From: Pseudobdellovibrionaceae bacterium
GTDB taxonomy: Bacteria; Bdellovibrionota; Bdellovibrionia; Bdellovibrionales; Bdellovibrionaceae
DNA: 64,000 nt
Assembly: GCA_019637915.1 (NCBI GenBank)
Contig: JAHBUV010000001.1
Coordinates: 620,001-684,000, forward strand
Direction: 5' to 3'
Below are positions 51,396 to 57,086 of this stretch, piece after piece; the stretch's first letter is position 1; every line of letters starts with the position of its first letter. Below the pieces are notes generated by a model that saw nothing but the letters and a program-made list of their open reading frames with translations, ran no database searches and was not told where the DNA came from. The position numbers and the translations under genes are program-made.

Positions 51396-51450
51396 CAGGA
51401 CCTGGCACCCTGGGGGGATGCGGTGCGGCCCGAAAGAGGAGCTGGCACCT
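51396..51450. repeat. Right REP-like inverted repeat of the RAYT element
   Basis: It starts CAGGACCTGGCACC and ends GAGGAGCTGGCACCT. It is the reverse complement of the left flank apart from one base. Confidence 0.85.
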
Positions 51451-54025
51451 AACGGTGGGAGGTGAAGAATTGGGCTTCGAATTTTTTGAAGGACTCGAGG
51501 CGGACTTGGGTGCCGAGGATTTCGCGCAAGCGCTCGATGGTTTCGCGCTCCTGCTCCTGCATCTTGGCGATGCCCTCTTTGACGAAGTCGGGATGGATCT
51601 TCTCTTTGCGCTCGGCGAGCGCGCGCACCAGGGCTGACGCGGCCGACAGGGCCTGCAGCGAGCGGTCCTCGTCCAGGCGCCATGTTTTGAACAGGTAAGC
51701 GGACGCCGCCTTGAACCACTCCCTCTGGAAACTCTCGTCAAGGTAGATCTCCGCGAAGCGGCTCGTCGAGAGGACAGAGTCCGTGTAGGTGGCCTTGATC
51801 TCCGGATCCTGCGGCGGATTGAACTTGCGCTCTTCCAAATCCCTGATCCGGGCCTCGCGCTCGCTCGCCATCAAACGGGTCATCGGCGATTTGTCCTCGT
51901 TCACCTTCATCAAGGCCGTCTGCGCCCCCCACAGCGCCAACACACCGAACGCCAAACCGCTCACCAGCCATGAGGCGCGCTCGCGCCCGCGACCGGCGAA
52001 AAGCTGGCGACGCGCTTCCTTCGCGGCCGACCCCGGCTTCAACGTCGTCGGCTGACCCGAAAGGATGTTGGAGATCTCCGTGTGCAATGACGGCGACAAA
52101 GAGGACCAGTCCACGTCCTTGCCGGCGTTCTTCACCGCCAGCTCGGTGGCGAGCAGGATCTCCTTCTCGACCAACTGCCGGCGTTTGCCGAGGTCCGCCA
52201 GAAGCTCCTTCTCGAACCTCTCCACTTTGCGGGTCGTCTCGAGCTGCAACTGCTGCAGACGCTCTTCCTCCGCCCTGCGCAAAGACTCCTCTTCCTCCGC
52301 CAGGCGGGTCTTCATCTGCGCCTGACGGGCCTCATGTTCCTTCTCCGCCTGCTGAAGCTGCTCTTTCACGGCACTCAAACGCAAACCCGCCTGCTCAAGC
52401 TCTTTGTTCTTCTCGGCGGCGCGGTTTTTCAGGGCCTCGATCTCGGCGCGCTGCTGATCGCCCTCGCGCTGCAGACGGATCATCGTCTCTTTGACGTCGC
52501 TGAGCTCCGATTTTTCCTTCGCGTCGTTCGCCAGCATCTCGCGGTACCGGATCTCCTGCTCGGCGATCCGCGCCTGGAGATCCTCCGAGGTTTTCTTCTC
52601 GGCGTCACGGGCGGCGATGGTTTTCTCCAAATCCGCCTTCAACGCCGCCAGCCGGTCCTGATGGGCCTGCAACTCACGGACGCTCTTCTCCTCATGGGCG
52701 CGGCGGGCTTCCTGCATTTGGCGTTCATGGTCCTCGAGGGCCTGGCGCAAACGCTCCTCTTGATCACGCTTCTGACGCGTCAAAGCCGTCTCCAAATCGC
52801 CGGTGGCGCGAGCCACGTGCTCCTGATGTGATTTCAATTCCTGCGCGAGGCGCTGTTCCTGCGACCGCGCCTCCGCCGCCAAGCGTTCCTGATGCTCTTT
52901 CAGCTCGCGGGCCAGTTTGTCCGCCTGGGCGCCCTTCTCCGTCGCCAGCCGCTCCTCATGCGCGCTCAGCTGCGAGGCCAAGCGATCTTCCTGAGTTTTT
53001 TTCTCAACGGCCAGACGTTCCTTTTGCCCGTCTTCCTCCGCCTGCAAACGCTCGCGGGTCGAAGCCAGCAACTCGTTCTCCTGGCGCCGGATGATCTCGT
53101 CCGCCTCTTTCAGGCGTTCCTCGCGGGCGACGCGCGCCTGCTCCTGCATCTGACGGAGCAAATTCTCGCACTCCTCTTCCGTGCGCTGGCGCAAAGCCTG
53201 CATCGAGCGCTCCGTCTCTTCCCGGATCCGCTGGCTCTGCTGACGGGCCTCCTGCACGAGGGCCTTGCCCTCTTCGCGGGATTTCGCGTACAGGGAGTCC
53301 GCCTCGCGGGCCGCCTCCTGCAGGTGCGTCTTGTAAAACACCTCCGCCTTGCGCTGGGTGTTCAGGGCGCGGTCGACGATCTCCTGGGCGCGCTTTTCCG
53401 CCGCCACCTCGGCCTCCTGCATGGTGCGGGCGGCCTGGATGCGCGCCTGCTGCAGGGTCTTTTCCGCCTCGGCGGTCTTCGCCTGGGGCCGGGCGAAAAT
53501 CTTGGTGTCGGCGTGCTCTTCATCCGGCGGCGGCGGCGGCGCGGCCTCCGCCGGTTTCACGGCCGGGATCGACGGGGCTTTCTCCCCCGGCAGTTCCGGC
53601 GTCACCGCCGACTGCTCGCGCACCAGGGCGCGCGGCACCGTCACGGATTCCTCTTTCGGCGGGACGGGAACGCTCTTCGGCAGGGCGATCTCCTCCTCGG
53701 CGCGCTCGATCAGAACGAAAATGGAAAAGCCGGATTTGCCGAGCTTGATCTCCTCGGATCCCTTCAGGGAGCGCGGCTTGTTGGCGGGCAGACGTTCCCC
53801 GTCGATGAACGTGCCGTTCGACGACCCGTGGTCCTCGACCCAGGCGCCGCCGTCCTTCTCGAAAATCGACAGGTGCTTGCGGCTGACGTTGGCGTTCTCG
53901 ACGATGAAATGGCAGTCGGGAGCGCGACCCATGGTCCAGCGCTCCCCTCCGGAAAGGTCCACCCGCGAAGAGCCGTCCGGCCCCGTGATGGTGATATGCA
54001 GGGTGCAACTCCCGCCCTTTTTCAT
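51449..54025 (-). CDS. FHA-domain, long coiled-coil, single-TM protein
   Basis: This gene encodes 858 residues. The FHA domain at ~10-105 has all phosphothreonine-reading residues (MGRAPDCHF, VSRKHLS, DHGSSNGTFIDG). A Pro/Glu linker (~115-180) leads to ~450 residues of Ala/Glu/Gln/Arg coiled coil (~180-640). A single TM (WLVSGLAFGVLALWGAQTAL, ~685-705) places the last ~150 residues in the periplasm. The AGAGGAG ribosome site lies five bases before the start, ten bases after the proton-channel gene. I infer a cytoplasmic phospho-signal reader and scaffold tethered to the motor encoded upstream. The stop codon is shared with the RAYT repeat. Not assignable to a named family. Confidence 0.85.
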   Translation of the reverse strand: MKKGGSCTLHITITGPDGSSRVDLSGGERWTMGRAPDCHFIVENANVSRKHLSIFEKDGGAWVEDHGSSNGTFIDGERLPANKPRSLKGSEEIKLGKSGFSIFVLIERAEEEIALPKSVPVPPKEESVTVPRALVREQSAVTPELPGEKAPSIPAVKPAEAAPPPPPDEEHADTKIFARPQAKTAEAEKTLQQARIQAARTMQEAEVAAEKRAQEIVDRALNTQRKAEVFYKTHLQEAAREADSLYAKSREEGKALVQEARQQSQRIREETERSMQALRQRTEEECENLLRQMQEQARVAREERLKEADEIIRRQENELLASTRERLQAEEDGQKERLAVEKKTQEDRLASQLSAHEERLATEKGAQADKLARELKEHQERLAAEARSQEQRLAQELKSHQEHVARATGDLETALTRQKRDQEERLRQALEDHERQMQEARRAHEEKSVRELQAHQDRLAALKADLEKTIAARDAEKKTSEDLQARIAEQEIRYREMLANDAKEKSELSDVKETMIRLQREGDQQRAEIEALKNRAAEKNKELEQAGLRLSAVKEQLQQAEKEHEARQAQMKTRLAEEEESLRRAEEERLQQLQLETTRKVERFEKELLADLGKRRQLVEKEILLATELAVKNAGKDVDWSSLSPSLHTEISNILSGQPTTLKPGSAAKEARRQLFAGRGRERASWLVSGLAFGVLALWGAQTALMKVNEDKSPMTRLMASEREARIRDLEERKFNPPQDPEIKATYTDSVLSTSRFAEIYLDESFQREWFKAASAYLFKTWRLDEDRSLQALSAASALVRALAERKEKIHPDFVKEGIAKMQEQERETIERLREILGTQVRLESFKKFEAQFFTSHR

Positions 54026-54035
54026 CCGTCTCCTC

Positions 54036-54971
54036 TTAAGAGGCCTTCACCGGCCGCACTTGGTCCATATCGCGGGTGCGCGAGGCGCGTCCGGCCTCGG
54101 CGTTGACCGCGTCCTCCGCCAGCGCCTCCACCGGGTCGCGATGCTCGTCGAAAGCCTTCTCGTCCAGCGGGTAGTCGTTGTTGTCGCTGCGGTACCACAG
54201 CAGATCCAGGGAGCTTTCAAAACGGTCCACCATCGACACGTAGACGCGCTCCGGGGAGTACATGACGTTCACGATGTGCGAGAGCAGCGAGAACACGATG
54301 CCCGCGATCGAGGTCTGCATGGCGAAAGAGATCTCCTGGAGGAAGCGGTCCATGATGTTCTTGGTGTTCTCCAGATCCTGCAGGTTCATGCCGCCGAGCT
54401 CCTGCAGGCCGCCGGCGATCCCGACGAAGGTTCCCAGGATCCCCGCGATCACGAAAAGACCCGGCAGGATCGAGATCAGATCGTTGAAGGCCGTCATCGG
54501 CAGGACGCCGAAGACGCGGTTGAAACAGGGGTTGTGGTGGAAGGTGGCCCGCGTGATGCCCAACAGCTTCGGCGTTTCCTGCGTCCACTTCAGGAACTTC
54601 AGCTGATTGAGGATGTCCTTCACCAGCCAGGCGCAGCCTTGCTTCACCAGGAAAACGCGGTCGCTCAGCGCCATGACGCCGTCGCCGCGGCGGCGGCGCA
54701 GGCGATCGCGGACCGCGAAGCCCTCGTAGAAGGAGCGCTCGAGCATGCGTTTCGCCAGCACGTAGAAAGAGACGTTTTTCACGACCCCGGGTTTTTCGCT
54801 CTCCATGAAGCGGGCGACGCGCTTTTCGAACTCGCGCGCGAACCATTCGTGGCGTTTCACCGTGTACCAGATCACCACCCGGAAGAAGGCCCCACCCAGG
54901 AAGACCAGGCCCATCACGTAGGGCAGGGTCAGGATGAAATACTCCGCGAAAATCTTCGTGCTCATGGTCAT
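54036..54971 (-). CDS. MotA/TolQ/ExbB (ZorA-like) proton-channel protein
   Basis: This gene encodes 311 residues starting at an ATGA overlap with the upstream gene. There is an N-terminal TM (~8-33), a basic cytoplasmic region (~35-155), then two TMs with the family pore motifs PGLFVIAGILGTFVGIAGG (~168-186) and SFAMQTSIAGIVFSLLSHIV (~215-235). It has three TMs, as in TolQ/ExbB, and lacks ZorA's long C-terminal coiled coil; the last ~60 residues are acidic and soluble. It should form the pentameric proton channel around the MotB-like partner encoded just upstream. Confidence 0.88.
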   Translation of the reverse strand: MTMSTKIFAEYFILTLPYVMGLVFLGGAFFRVVIWYTVKRHEWFAREFEKRVARFMESEKPGVVKNVSFYVLAKRMLERSFYEGFAVRDRLRRRRGDGVMALSDRVFLVKQGCAWLVKDILNQLKFLKWTQETPKLLGITRATFHHNPCFNRVFGVLPMTAFNDLISILPGLFVIAGILGTFVGIAGGLQELGGMNLQDLENTKNIMDRFLQEISFAMQTSIAGIVFSLLSHIVNVMYSPERVYVSMVDRFESSLDLLWYRSDNNDYPLDEKAFDEHRDPVEALAEDAVNAEAGRASRTRDMDQVRPVKAS

Positions 54972-56668
54972 TTCCCCTTGTTTTCCATGTTGAAGCGAAC
55001 GATGACCCGCTGGGCCTTGCGGCAGTCGTTTTGCCGGCAGAACTCGGCGGCGTTGGCGACGCCGCGGCTCTGCACTTTCATGACTTCCAGGAAGCTGCGG
55101 CCGGAGACTTTCATCAGGGCCAGCAATTCCCGCTGATGCTGGAAGTTCGGATCCTTCTCCTCCACCAGGTGCGTGAAGATGGCGTTGGCCCGGCGGTAAC
55201 TGAGATCCATGTTGTATTTCAAGGCGGCGCGGTCATCCGCCTTGGTGCTGTAAGGGTCGACGAAGCGGCCCTTGTAAGTCGGCGAAGCGAAACCCACCAC
55301 CTCGACGGAGGAGATCTTGCCCGCGAGCTTGGGATTGCCGAACAACGAACGCGAGTAAGCCGGCATGGCTTTTTCCAGGACGTTGCGCATCTCCGGCTTC
55401 AGGTTGGCCGAGTCGTTCTCGAAGTAGGCGTCGCCGAAATCGAGCACGACCTCGCCGGTCTGCATGTCGATGTCCGCCTTCACGCCCGCCTGCTTGAAGG
55501 CTTTCTGGATGTCCTTGGCGATCTCGCGGCGGGCATCGATCTCTTCCTTGGCGCGGGCCAGGGCGCCCTCCGTGTCGTGCAGGCGGCCCTGCAGCCCCGC
55601 CAGCCGCCCTTGCAGCTCTTTCTCTTTGCGTTCAGCGGCGGCGCGGAACTCGCCCTCGCGGCGGGCCCTTTCCGCGGCGCCCAGTTTTTGCTTCTTCAGT
55701 TCGCCCTCGAAAGCGGCGCGATCGCGGGCTTTTTCCGCGGCGTGCCCGGCCTGCAAAGAGGCGATCTGGCCTTTCAAGCCATCGGCTTCCCCCGCCGCCC
55801 GGGCCAGCTGCCCTTTCAGGCCTTCCGCCTCGCCGGAAGCGCGCGCCAGTTGCCCCTGCAGCTTCTTCGCCTCGGACTCCTTCTCGCTGAGCGCCGACTG
55901 CGTCGACTGCAGCTCGCCCGAGAGCTGGCTCAGCTGGCCGGCGTATTTCTGGTTGGCGTCCGCCAGGCGCTGGATTTTCTCCTCGCTTTCGGCTTTGAGC
56001 TGCTGCTGCCTCTGCTCGAAGATCTTTTTGCTGATCTTGTTGGCCTTGTAGGAACGGCGCAGTTCCTTCATGCGCTCGTCCAGGGCGGCCTCGGCGGCGG
56101 CGATCTTGCGTTCGCCCTCGCTGATCTGATTTTTCTTCGCGTCGATGTCTTTTTTCAGGTCGCCGATGTCGCGCTCCTGGCGGTCGATCTCGATGTCCTG
56201 CTCCTGAATCAGGTCATTGCGCGCGATGATGCGCGATTTCGCCACTTTGTTGGCGTTCAGGACGTTGCGCACCATCTGCTGGTACTTGTTCAGGGCCTTG
56301 GCCTTCCTCTCGTTTTCCAGGGACTGCTGCGCCAGGCGGGTTTTTTCGTCCTTCGCCTCCGACTCCAGCAGGGTCAGCTTGTCGATCAGCTCCTGGTACT
56401 CCTGCACCTCGTCCTGGCTGGCGGACTTCTGCATGTAATCGCTTTTCACGGACTCGTACATCTTGAGCTGGTTGCGCAGCTCCTCCACCTGCATGGTGAG
56501 CTTCTGGTTCTCCACCTGGTTCTGCAAGGCATCAGTGCCGGTGCGCAGGCTCGAGGTCACGTAGAGCAGCAGGAAGATCGTGCTCAGACCCAGGAAAAGG
56601 TCGGAGTACGACGTCCAAAAACTGTCGTTCGAGTGGGCCTGCTTGTTCTTTTCATAATTGAATGCCAT
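54968..56668 (-). CDS. MotB/OmpA-like stator protein with long coiled coil
   Basis: This gene encodes 566 residues from ATG 56668 with GAGGG upstream; a longer frame upstream is noise. The single TM SYSDLFLGLSTIFLLLYV holds Asp23 in the position of the proton-carrying MotB Asp. About 350 residues of coiled coil follow (~45-400), far longer than in MotB, with repeats such as LARASGEAEGLKGQLARA. The C-terminal OmpA/MotB peptidoglycan-binding-like domain has FENDSANLKPE, VVGFASPTYKG and NMDLSYRRANAI. It would span from a TolQ-type channel to the cell wall. It is the first gene of the three-gene motor operon. Confidence 0.87.
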   Translation of the reverse strand: MAFNYEKNKQAHSNDSFWTSYSDLFLGLSTIFLLLYVTSSLRTGTDALQNQVENQKLTMQVEELRNQLKMYESVKSDYMQKSASQDEVQEYQELIDKLTLLESEAKDEKTRLAQQSLENERKAKALNKYQQMVRNVLNANKVAKSRIIARNDLIQEQDIEIDRQERDIGDLKKDIDAKKNQISEGERKIAAAEAALDERMKELRRSYKANKISKKIFEQRQQQLKAESEEKIQRLADANQKYAGQLSQLSGELQSTQSALSEKESEAKKLQGQLARASGEAEGLKGQLARAAGEADGLKGQIASLQAGHAAEKARDRAAFEGELKKQKLGAAERARREGEFRAAAERKEKELQGRLAGLQGRLHDTEGALARAKEEIDARREIAKDIQKAFKQAGVKADIDMQTGEVVLDFGDAYFENDSANLKPEMRNVLEKAMPAYSRSLFGNPKLAGKISSVEVVGFASPTYKGRFVDPYSTKADDRAALKYNMDLSYRRANAIFTHLVEEKDPNFQHQRELLALMKVSGRSFLEVMKVQSRGVANAAEFCRQNDCRKAQRVIVRFNMENKGK

Positions 56669-56697
56669 GGACCATCCCTCGGTTTTCCCCGAGGAAC

Positions 56698-56724
56698 TTA
56701 TCGATGTTTCATGGCGGGACTTGA
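56698..56724 (-). promoter_or_regulatory. Sigma28-like promoter of the FHA-motor operon
   Basis: On the minus strand, TCAAGTCC (56717-56724), 11 bases, then ATCGATAA (56698-56705), against the FliA consensus TAAAGTTT-N11-GCCGATAA. The start codon lies 30 bases downstream, leaving room for the GAGGG ribosome site. Confidence 0.4.
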
Positions 56725-56747: not shown

Positions 56748-57086
56748 TTAGGTCGGGCCCCGCAAAAGCACATCCCGACTTTCGCCGGTCTCGAGGAGGA
56801 AAAAATCCTCGTCTGCGACAGCTTTTTCGCGGCGGGCTTCCGTCAAGGCGCGGACCGGCTCGTCGAACCCTTCATCGGTCAAGCGCCACGTCCCGAAGTG
56901 GATTCCCATCGAGTGCCACGCCCTCAGATCCAGATGCGCCCGCACGGCGTCCCGCGGATTCATGTGCTGGCCGCGCATGAACCAACGCGGTTCATAAGCG
57001 CCGATCGGCAGCAGGGCCAGATCCATCTTCGGCCAACGCCGCGCGATCTCGGCGAAGTGCGCGCCGGCGTCGAAAAAACATCGACT
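56748..57086 (-). pseudogene. 5'-truncated UlaG/NAPE-PLD-like metallo-beta-lactamase relic
   Basis: The open region is 112 codons after a TGA at 57087-57089. DLALLPIGAYEPRWFM, then QHMNPRDAV and SMGIHFGTWRLTDEGFDEPV are the C-terminal signature of MBL-fold N-acyl-PE phospholipase D/UlaG-like hydrolases. The first two thirds, including the HxHxDH zinc site, are absent; the DNA upstream is the start of the antiporter gene on the other strand. A short ORF could start at 57026, but it could not make an active enzyme. It lies over the upstream region of the motor operon. Confidence 0.75.

Follow-up and report, generated by a model that had tools for sequence, protein, structure and literature searches.

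Three adjacent minus-strand genes of a 3.3 Mb Bdellovibrionales genome probably encode a signal-gated, ion-driven envelope motor. The best reading of our results is that this motor is anchored to peptidoglycan and gated by phosphothreonine (F type) or, in a sister type, by a cyclic nucleotide (N type). The genes, arranged in the order B-A-F, lie in window G000:C1:620001-684000, where the window is the whole stretch of 64,000 nucleotides that was analysed. They encode a MotB/ZorB-like stator subunit (B), a ZorA-like channel subunit (A) and an FHA protein (F). That the predicted A-B pair belongs to the ZorAB superfamily, and not to MotAB, TolQR, ExbBD or AglRQS, is well supported, as profiles, a tree of the channel core and the predicted fold of B agree on this placement. 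A first-pass annotation of the same DNA had described a three-gene locus of this kind, and all of the elements that it listed are present.

Locus organization

Gene B (54968..56668, minus strand) encodes a protein of 566 amino acids, gene A (54036..54971, minus strand) one of 311 amino acids, and gene F (51449..54025, minus strand) one of 858 amino acids. The stop codon of B and the start codon of A share an ATGA overlap (54968..54971, minus strand), which we read as translational coupling, as had been proposed before, and F starts at 54025, 10 bases past A, with a good ribosome-binding site (GAGGAG). Of the extent originally given to the locus, 51449-56724, the end of F stands, but B starts at the ATG at 56668, position 56724 being located slightly upstream of it. 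On the 3' side of the set are a Y1-type transposase-like gene, cdd, maf, folE2, fur and uvrA, and on the 5' side are kefB-like and CLC-type channel genes; no Zorya effector-like gene was found among the neighbours of the set in the window. A metallo-beta-lactamase-fold gene (PF12706, E 9e-9) has left a 3' remnant of 110 residues directly upstream of B, at 56752-57080 on the minus strand; this remnant is devoid of a start and truncated by the opposite-strand kefB-like gene.

The motor pair

The sole transmembrane (TM) helix of B spans residues 23-41, and the predicted ion-carrying residue, Asp23 (codon at 56600..56602, minus strand), sits at the edge of this helix within a WTSYSDLF motif. Asp23, which had been recognised in the first-pass annotation, and Trp18 are both invariant in the 39 B proteins that were aligned, and Asp23 is the equivalent of D24/D21 of ZorB (PMC11890865). 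The helical part of about 350 residues that had been placed on the MotB side is borne out by structure prediction, in which approximately residues 45-394 (55487..56536, minus strand) form four long helices with breaks near residues 81-85, 208-214 and 326-331. For residues 138-289, the AlphaFold2 model (mean pLDDT 76.9) shows a hairpin of antiparallel helices with p85 iSH2-like matches, and hence this long periplasmic region need not be one straight rod. The OmpA-like end is likewise in place, as residues 395-566 (54971..55486, minus strand) make up an OmpA/ZorB-like C-terminal domain of the peptidoglycan-binding type, in which the motifs GxASPTY, YNxDLSxxRA and FCxxxDC are conserved. Because the peptidoglycan motif is altered, however, with GFASP where OmpA and MotB have GHTD, peptidoglycan binding by B is not certain.

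A has three TM candidates (residues 12-30, 165-183 and 216-234), in line with the three-TM channel described earlier, and its C-terminus is reached about 77 residues past the last of them, with no long cytosolic tail; the short tail that it has contains a conserved FDEHRDPxEALA sequence. Thr180 (codon at 54432..54434, minus strand) and Ser220 (codon at 54312..54314, minus strand) are invariant and align with Thr147 and Ser184, respectively, of ZorA, whose structures are retrieved from the PDB by a profile of A. At L060 (8001-8847) and in genome G038 (C119), A is broken by a frameshift or stop, and B and F remain.

Both A and B score under the Pfam cut-offs, and the models that point them to ZorA and ZorB are those of NCBIfam and PADLOC. 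All of the 38 A proteins match ZorA models and, among stator families, ZorA models only; their scores lie below the curated cut-offs for full-length ZorA, and our claim is therefore one of superfamily kinship, not of A being a ZorA. Similarly, 39 of 39 B proteins match the ZorB1 and ZorB2 profiles, and no match of B to the ExbD/TolR model was found. In the tree of the channel core, which was built on 102 columns only and has its long branches flagged, three ZorA sequences fall together with A and its sister types in one group (support 99/96), inside which ZorA is a group of its own (94/82). Outside of the larger group lie MotA, TolQ and ExbB of E. coli, along with the nine further proteins of MotA/TolQ/ExbB/AglR type that this genome encodes. 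The model of B has its best matches in ZorB of Sulfuricurvum, Shewanella and E. coli (Z 15.9, 14.8 and 14.2), followed by MotS, MotB and OmpA domains. A flagellar, Tol, Ton or Agl placement of A is ruled out by the models and the tree. The first-pass annotation had seen a likeness to ZorAB in domain types and had called the locus neither flagellar nor Zorya. The likeness and the non-flagellar nature are both upheld by these matches and by the position of A outside the MotA group. The exclusion of Zorya holds for the defence system, given the tail and the effectors, but not for the motor pair, which is a branch of the ZorAB superfamily.

The FHA protein

The description of the third gene product as an FHA-coiled-coil-TM protein also proved accurate. 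The FHA domain of F covers residues 30-96 (53738..53938, minus strand; Pfam FHA, E 1e-15), and the residues of its phosphothreonine-binding motif (GR, SRxH, SxNGT) are conserved over 62 F sequences. It is followed by a coiled-coil-like region rich in E, K, R, Q and A, at approximately residues 185-645 (52091..53473, minus strand), which is cytosolic by topology, then by a single TM helix at residues 687-705 (51911..51967, minus strand), and finally by a C-terminal domain at approximately residues 730-858 (51452..51838, minus strand) that is predicted to be periplasmic. The last 125 residues are modelled confidently as all-helical (pLDDT ~90-98), and no fold match with E < 0.001 was found for this domain in the PDB, which does not prove that the fold is new. 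Neither an enzymatic nor a TonB domain was found in F. This genome encodes one Hanks-type kinase. A second, shorter F-like protein of 542 amino acids, with an FHA domain and the same C-terminal domain, is present in another genome (G075, L208 4900-6528), with no A-B pair adjoining.

The association of an FHA protein with a channel is reminiscent of a gliding or surface-motility motor of the Agl-Glt working type, given that in Myxococcus the FHA-TM protein GltG is linked to the proton channel AglRQS (PMC3169522). Gliding is also seen in Bdellovibrio, whose agl genes are of importance for predation (PMC6561027); clusters of the GltG/AglRQS kind are, in fact, also found in this genome. We nevertheless hold such a function for B-A-F to be unlikely. 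A is not an AglR according to the tree, B is OmpA/ZorB-like and not ExbD-like, and F, besides being devoid of a TonB domain, matches the GltG model weakly, with an E of 0.89 that is far under the model cut-off. Moreover, no TPR Glt genes adjoin the set, and the Glt-type clusters lie elsewhere in the genome. A Glt-like cluster at G000:C1:2556000-2570000 (L107), which comprises a large repeat-type protein, an FHA protein, an AglR-type channel and two ExbD-type proteins, is this genome's ordinary FHA-linked motor.

Conservation and co-inheritance

All of the genomes searched for A, B and F belong to the phylum Bdellovibrionota. Among 100 related genomes, A is present in 67 and B in 69, and the C-terminal domain of F is present in 62, all of which have A; A without F occurs in five genomes, all of one genus (G071, G076, G088, G090 and G096). 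Conservation to this extent goes far past what chance would produce. In 61 of these 62 F-bearing genomes, F is the gene that immediately follows A (two of these loci being judged from the FHA part at a contig end). A search for FHA-TolQ-OmpA triplets and their neighbours had been suggested in the first-pass annotation, and the B-A-F order indeed recurs in relatives; the FHA gene is conserved beside the motor, and the pair lies outside the flagellar MotAB and TolQR groups. The exception to linkage is G043, a complete genome with A-B at 2.11 Mb and an intact F at 1.196 Mb, 0.9 Mb apart, and that F was kept after unlinking argues for a function shared with A-B. The moved F gene (L206 4382-6457) adjoins small genes resembling a toxin-antitoxin pair. 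In pairwise comparisons, A, B and F diverge in parallel (r 0.78-0.85), which fits co-inheritance, even though common ancestry alone can also give such a correlation. When the profile of A was used across the phylum, 151 of 291 genomes were retrieved in two tiers, the first of which keeps the B-A-F order in other classes as well. The same three genes, at 99-100% identity, were also seen on a contig filed under the Actinomycetota MAG ACE_ACT2 (L039, JAHBSN010000147.1), which is most likely a misbinned Bdellovibrionales contig.

A genome that we take to be that of B. bacteriovorus HD100 carries the set. A is missing from 33 of the 100 relatives. One of these, G045, is a complete genome from the genus group to which HD100 belongs; as all three genes are missing there, the set is dispensable in some genomes. 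Two genomes, presumably those of the epibiotic predators P. exovorus JSS and B. qaytius, are also without the set. As G045 lacks it too, we do not propose a link to prey invasion, and a connection between the absence of the set and epibiotic predation is a lead only. F is not always needed, as there are lineages, one genus and several others, that have retained the A-B pair with no recognised third gene. In the article texts that we searched, comparative-genomics and Tn-seq studies included and supplements aside, no published description of this gene set or of the HD100 locus was found.

Another candidate is an envelope-integrity or division motor that does the job of Tol-Pal, in which F would serve for localisation or as a scaffold and not as a gate. 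The trans-envelope layout, the peptidoglycan-type domain on B, and the coiled coil and periplasmic domain of F would all suit this role, and the pairing of phosphothreonine with FHA domains is widespread in the control of division and of the wall. We regard it as doubtful, however, as a TolQ-type protein that groups beside E. coli TolQ/ExbB (L061) is also encoded in this genome, and many relatives live without the set.

Because ZorA and ZorB are the nearest kin of A and B, and because the Zorya motor has been proposed to be a sensor of disturbed peptidoglycan (PMC11890865), an anti-phage system of the Zorya type, reduced or divergent, was considered as well, in which A-B would sense envelope damage and F, or the cyclic-nucleotide protein described below, would be the effector or relay. 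We hold this to be the least likely reading. No nuclease, helicase or other effector adjoins the set. As the first-pass annotation had stated, no ZorC, ZorD or ZorE lies beside the set in the window, and the 135 neighbour proteins examined at related loci do not include any either. This genome is devoid of the ZorC family PF15611, and so are 58 of 59 others that were searched. An enzymatic domain is missing from F, and A is without the long cytosolic tail of ZorA. The set is spread over the phylum, usually as a single copy per genome, and beyond B-A-F its neighbours are ordinary genes that vary by lineage, no Pfam family being represented in more than 3 of the 135 proteins, and do not form a defence island. 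In viral contigs no close relative was found, only two distant ZorA-like fragments. Membership in Zorya is ruled out by the short tail of A and the missing effectors, and among the roles originally suggested for this locus (motility, division or defence), defence is the least supported.

A sister motor with a different third gene

The second tier of the A-profile search (E about 1e-36 to 1e-46), in which complete B proteins measure 565 to 1758 amino acids, consists of motors with a different third gene. Directly after A, 17 of the 18 loci examined encode a protein of 146-168 amino acids. The two of these proteins that were tested contain a cyclic-nucleotide-binding domain (PF00027, E 8e-22 and 2e-18), and the remaining ones were recognised through mutual similarity. 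The channel tree supports the N type as a group (98/88), which nests beside the F-type lineages and those devoid of a third gene. Loci of the sister motor are L167-L181, L184 and L185, the B protein of 1758 amino acids being that of L173. Two unrelated cytosolic ligand readers occupy the same gene position, which is our strongest indication that the third gene may be an exchangeable cytosolic signal input, and the replacement of an FHA by a cyclic-nucleotide-binding protein supports a signal input better than the FHA gene alone would. More generally, the chances seem to us evenly balanced that Bdellovibrionota possess a non-defence branch of ZorAB, made of envelope motors that are set by an exchangeable sensor (FHA or cNMP) and carry their long helical reach in B, a subunit that attains ~1,750 residues in some species.

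Proposed mechanism and significance

The 5:2 motors MotAB and ZorAB (PMC11890865, PMC12505986) are the basis on which we picture the working of the B-A-F motor. Our data show which genes are there, how they are conserved and co-occur, to which family the pair belongs and that its key residues are intact; the 5:2 stoichiometry, the flow of ions, the hold on peptidoglycan, the control by F and the role in the cell are inferred. By homology, the inner membrane would harbour a 5:2 complex of five A and two B subunits, where Asp23 of B would act against Thr180 and Ser220, arranged in a ring by the A subunits. Ions that flow past Asp23 would either turn A around B or change the A-B contact, while B holds the wall. 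The grip on peptidoglycan would be provided by the OmpA/ZorB-like domain at the end of the long periplasmic helical hairpin, which would replace the short linker of ZorB and MotB. The length that ZorA has in its tail would here reside in the periplasmic part of B and the cytosolic part of F. The latter protein would be a separate regulatory or coupling subunit whose FHA domain reads phosphothreonine in the cytosol, and its coiled coil, TM helix and periplasmic helical domain would pass the phospho-state on to the motor or to its load. As a cytosolic arm, F would stand in for the ZorA tail; that this arm would respond to phosphothreonine is suggested by the intact FHA motif in 62 sequences and by the single Hanks-type kinase of this genome. 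In the sister clade, the small cyclic-nucleotide-binding protein would take the place of F. Alternatively, F could serve the motor as its load or as a scaffold and not gate it. The output of the signal-gated motor is probably mechanical work or tension on the envelope, put to use in growth, division, shape or surface movement; phage defence is a less probable output.

To our knowledge, Zorya motors are known only from phage defence. A ZorAB-like motor that is phylum-wide, usually single-copy and effector-less suggests an envelope role, present or past, for this branch of motors, and it is possible that defence was recruited from an envelope motor, or the reverse. If the exchange of FHA and cyclic-nucleotide readers at the same position is indeed a change of input, this would be one of few rotary-type motors with a built-in signal input. 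A 2025 stator phylogeny omitted ZorAB from its tree as a remote homologue (PMC12505986).

Comparison with known motor systems

The system closest to this set is Zorya, types I and II, which has the same Thr/Ser ion-path pair in A, as well as the TM aspartate and the C-terminal domain in B, the latter being closest to that of ZorB. In Zorya, B binds peptidoglycan and the long cytosolic tail of A, which is required for defence, relays to nucleases (PMC11890865). That tail extends for several hundred residues (PMC11890865), whereas A ends here shortly after its last TM helix. Furthermore, the long helical part is in B, the gene order is B-A-F, and the third gene encodes a signal-binding protein in place of ZorC, ZorD or ZorE. 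The set is also chromosomal and usually single-copy, in varied ordinary neighbourhoods. MotAB and PomAB share with it the TM aspartate and the OmpA-like domain of the peptidoglycan-binding type on B, but MotA crosses the membrane with four TM helices and carries a torque-generating domain, unlike A, with its three TM candidates and its position outside the MotA group. TolQR and ExbBD have a three-TM channel subunit in common with the set; their partner subunit, however, carries an ExbD/TolR-type domain, where that of B is of the OmpA/ZorB type, and A falls outside the TolQ/ExbB group of the tree. Finally, Agl-Glt resembles the set in the genetic linkage of an FHA-TM protein to a proton-channel motor, and differs from it in that AglR, AglQ and AglS are of the TolQ/ExbD type, GltG has a TonB end, and TPR proteins are part of the system.
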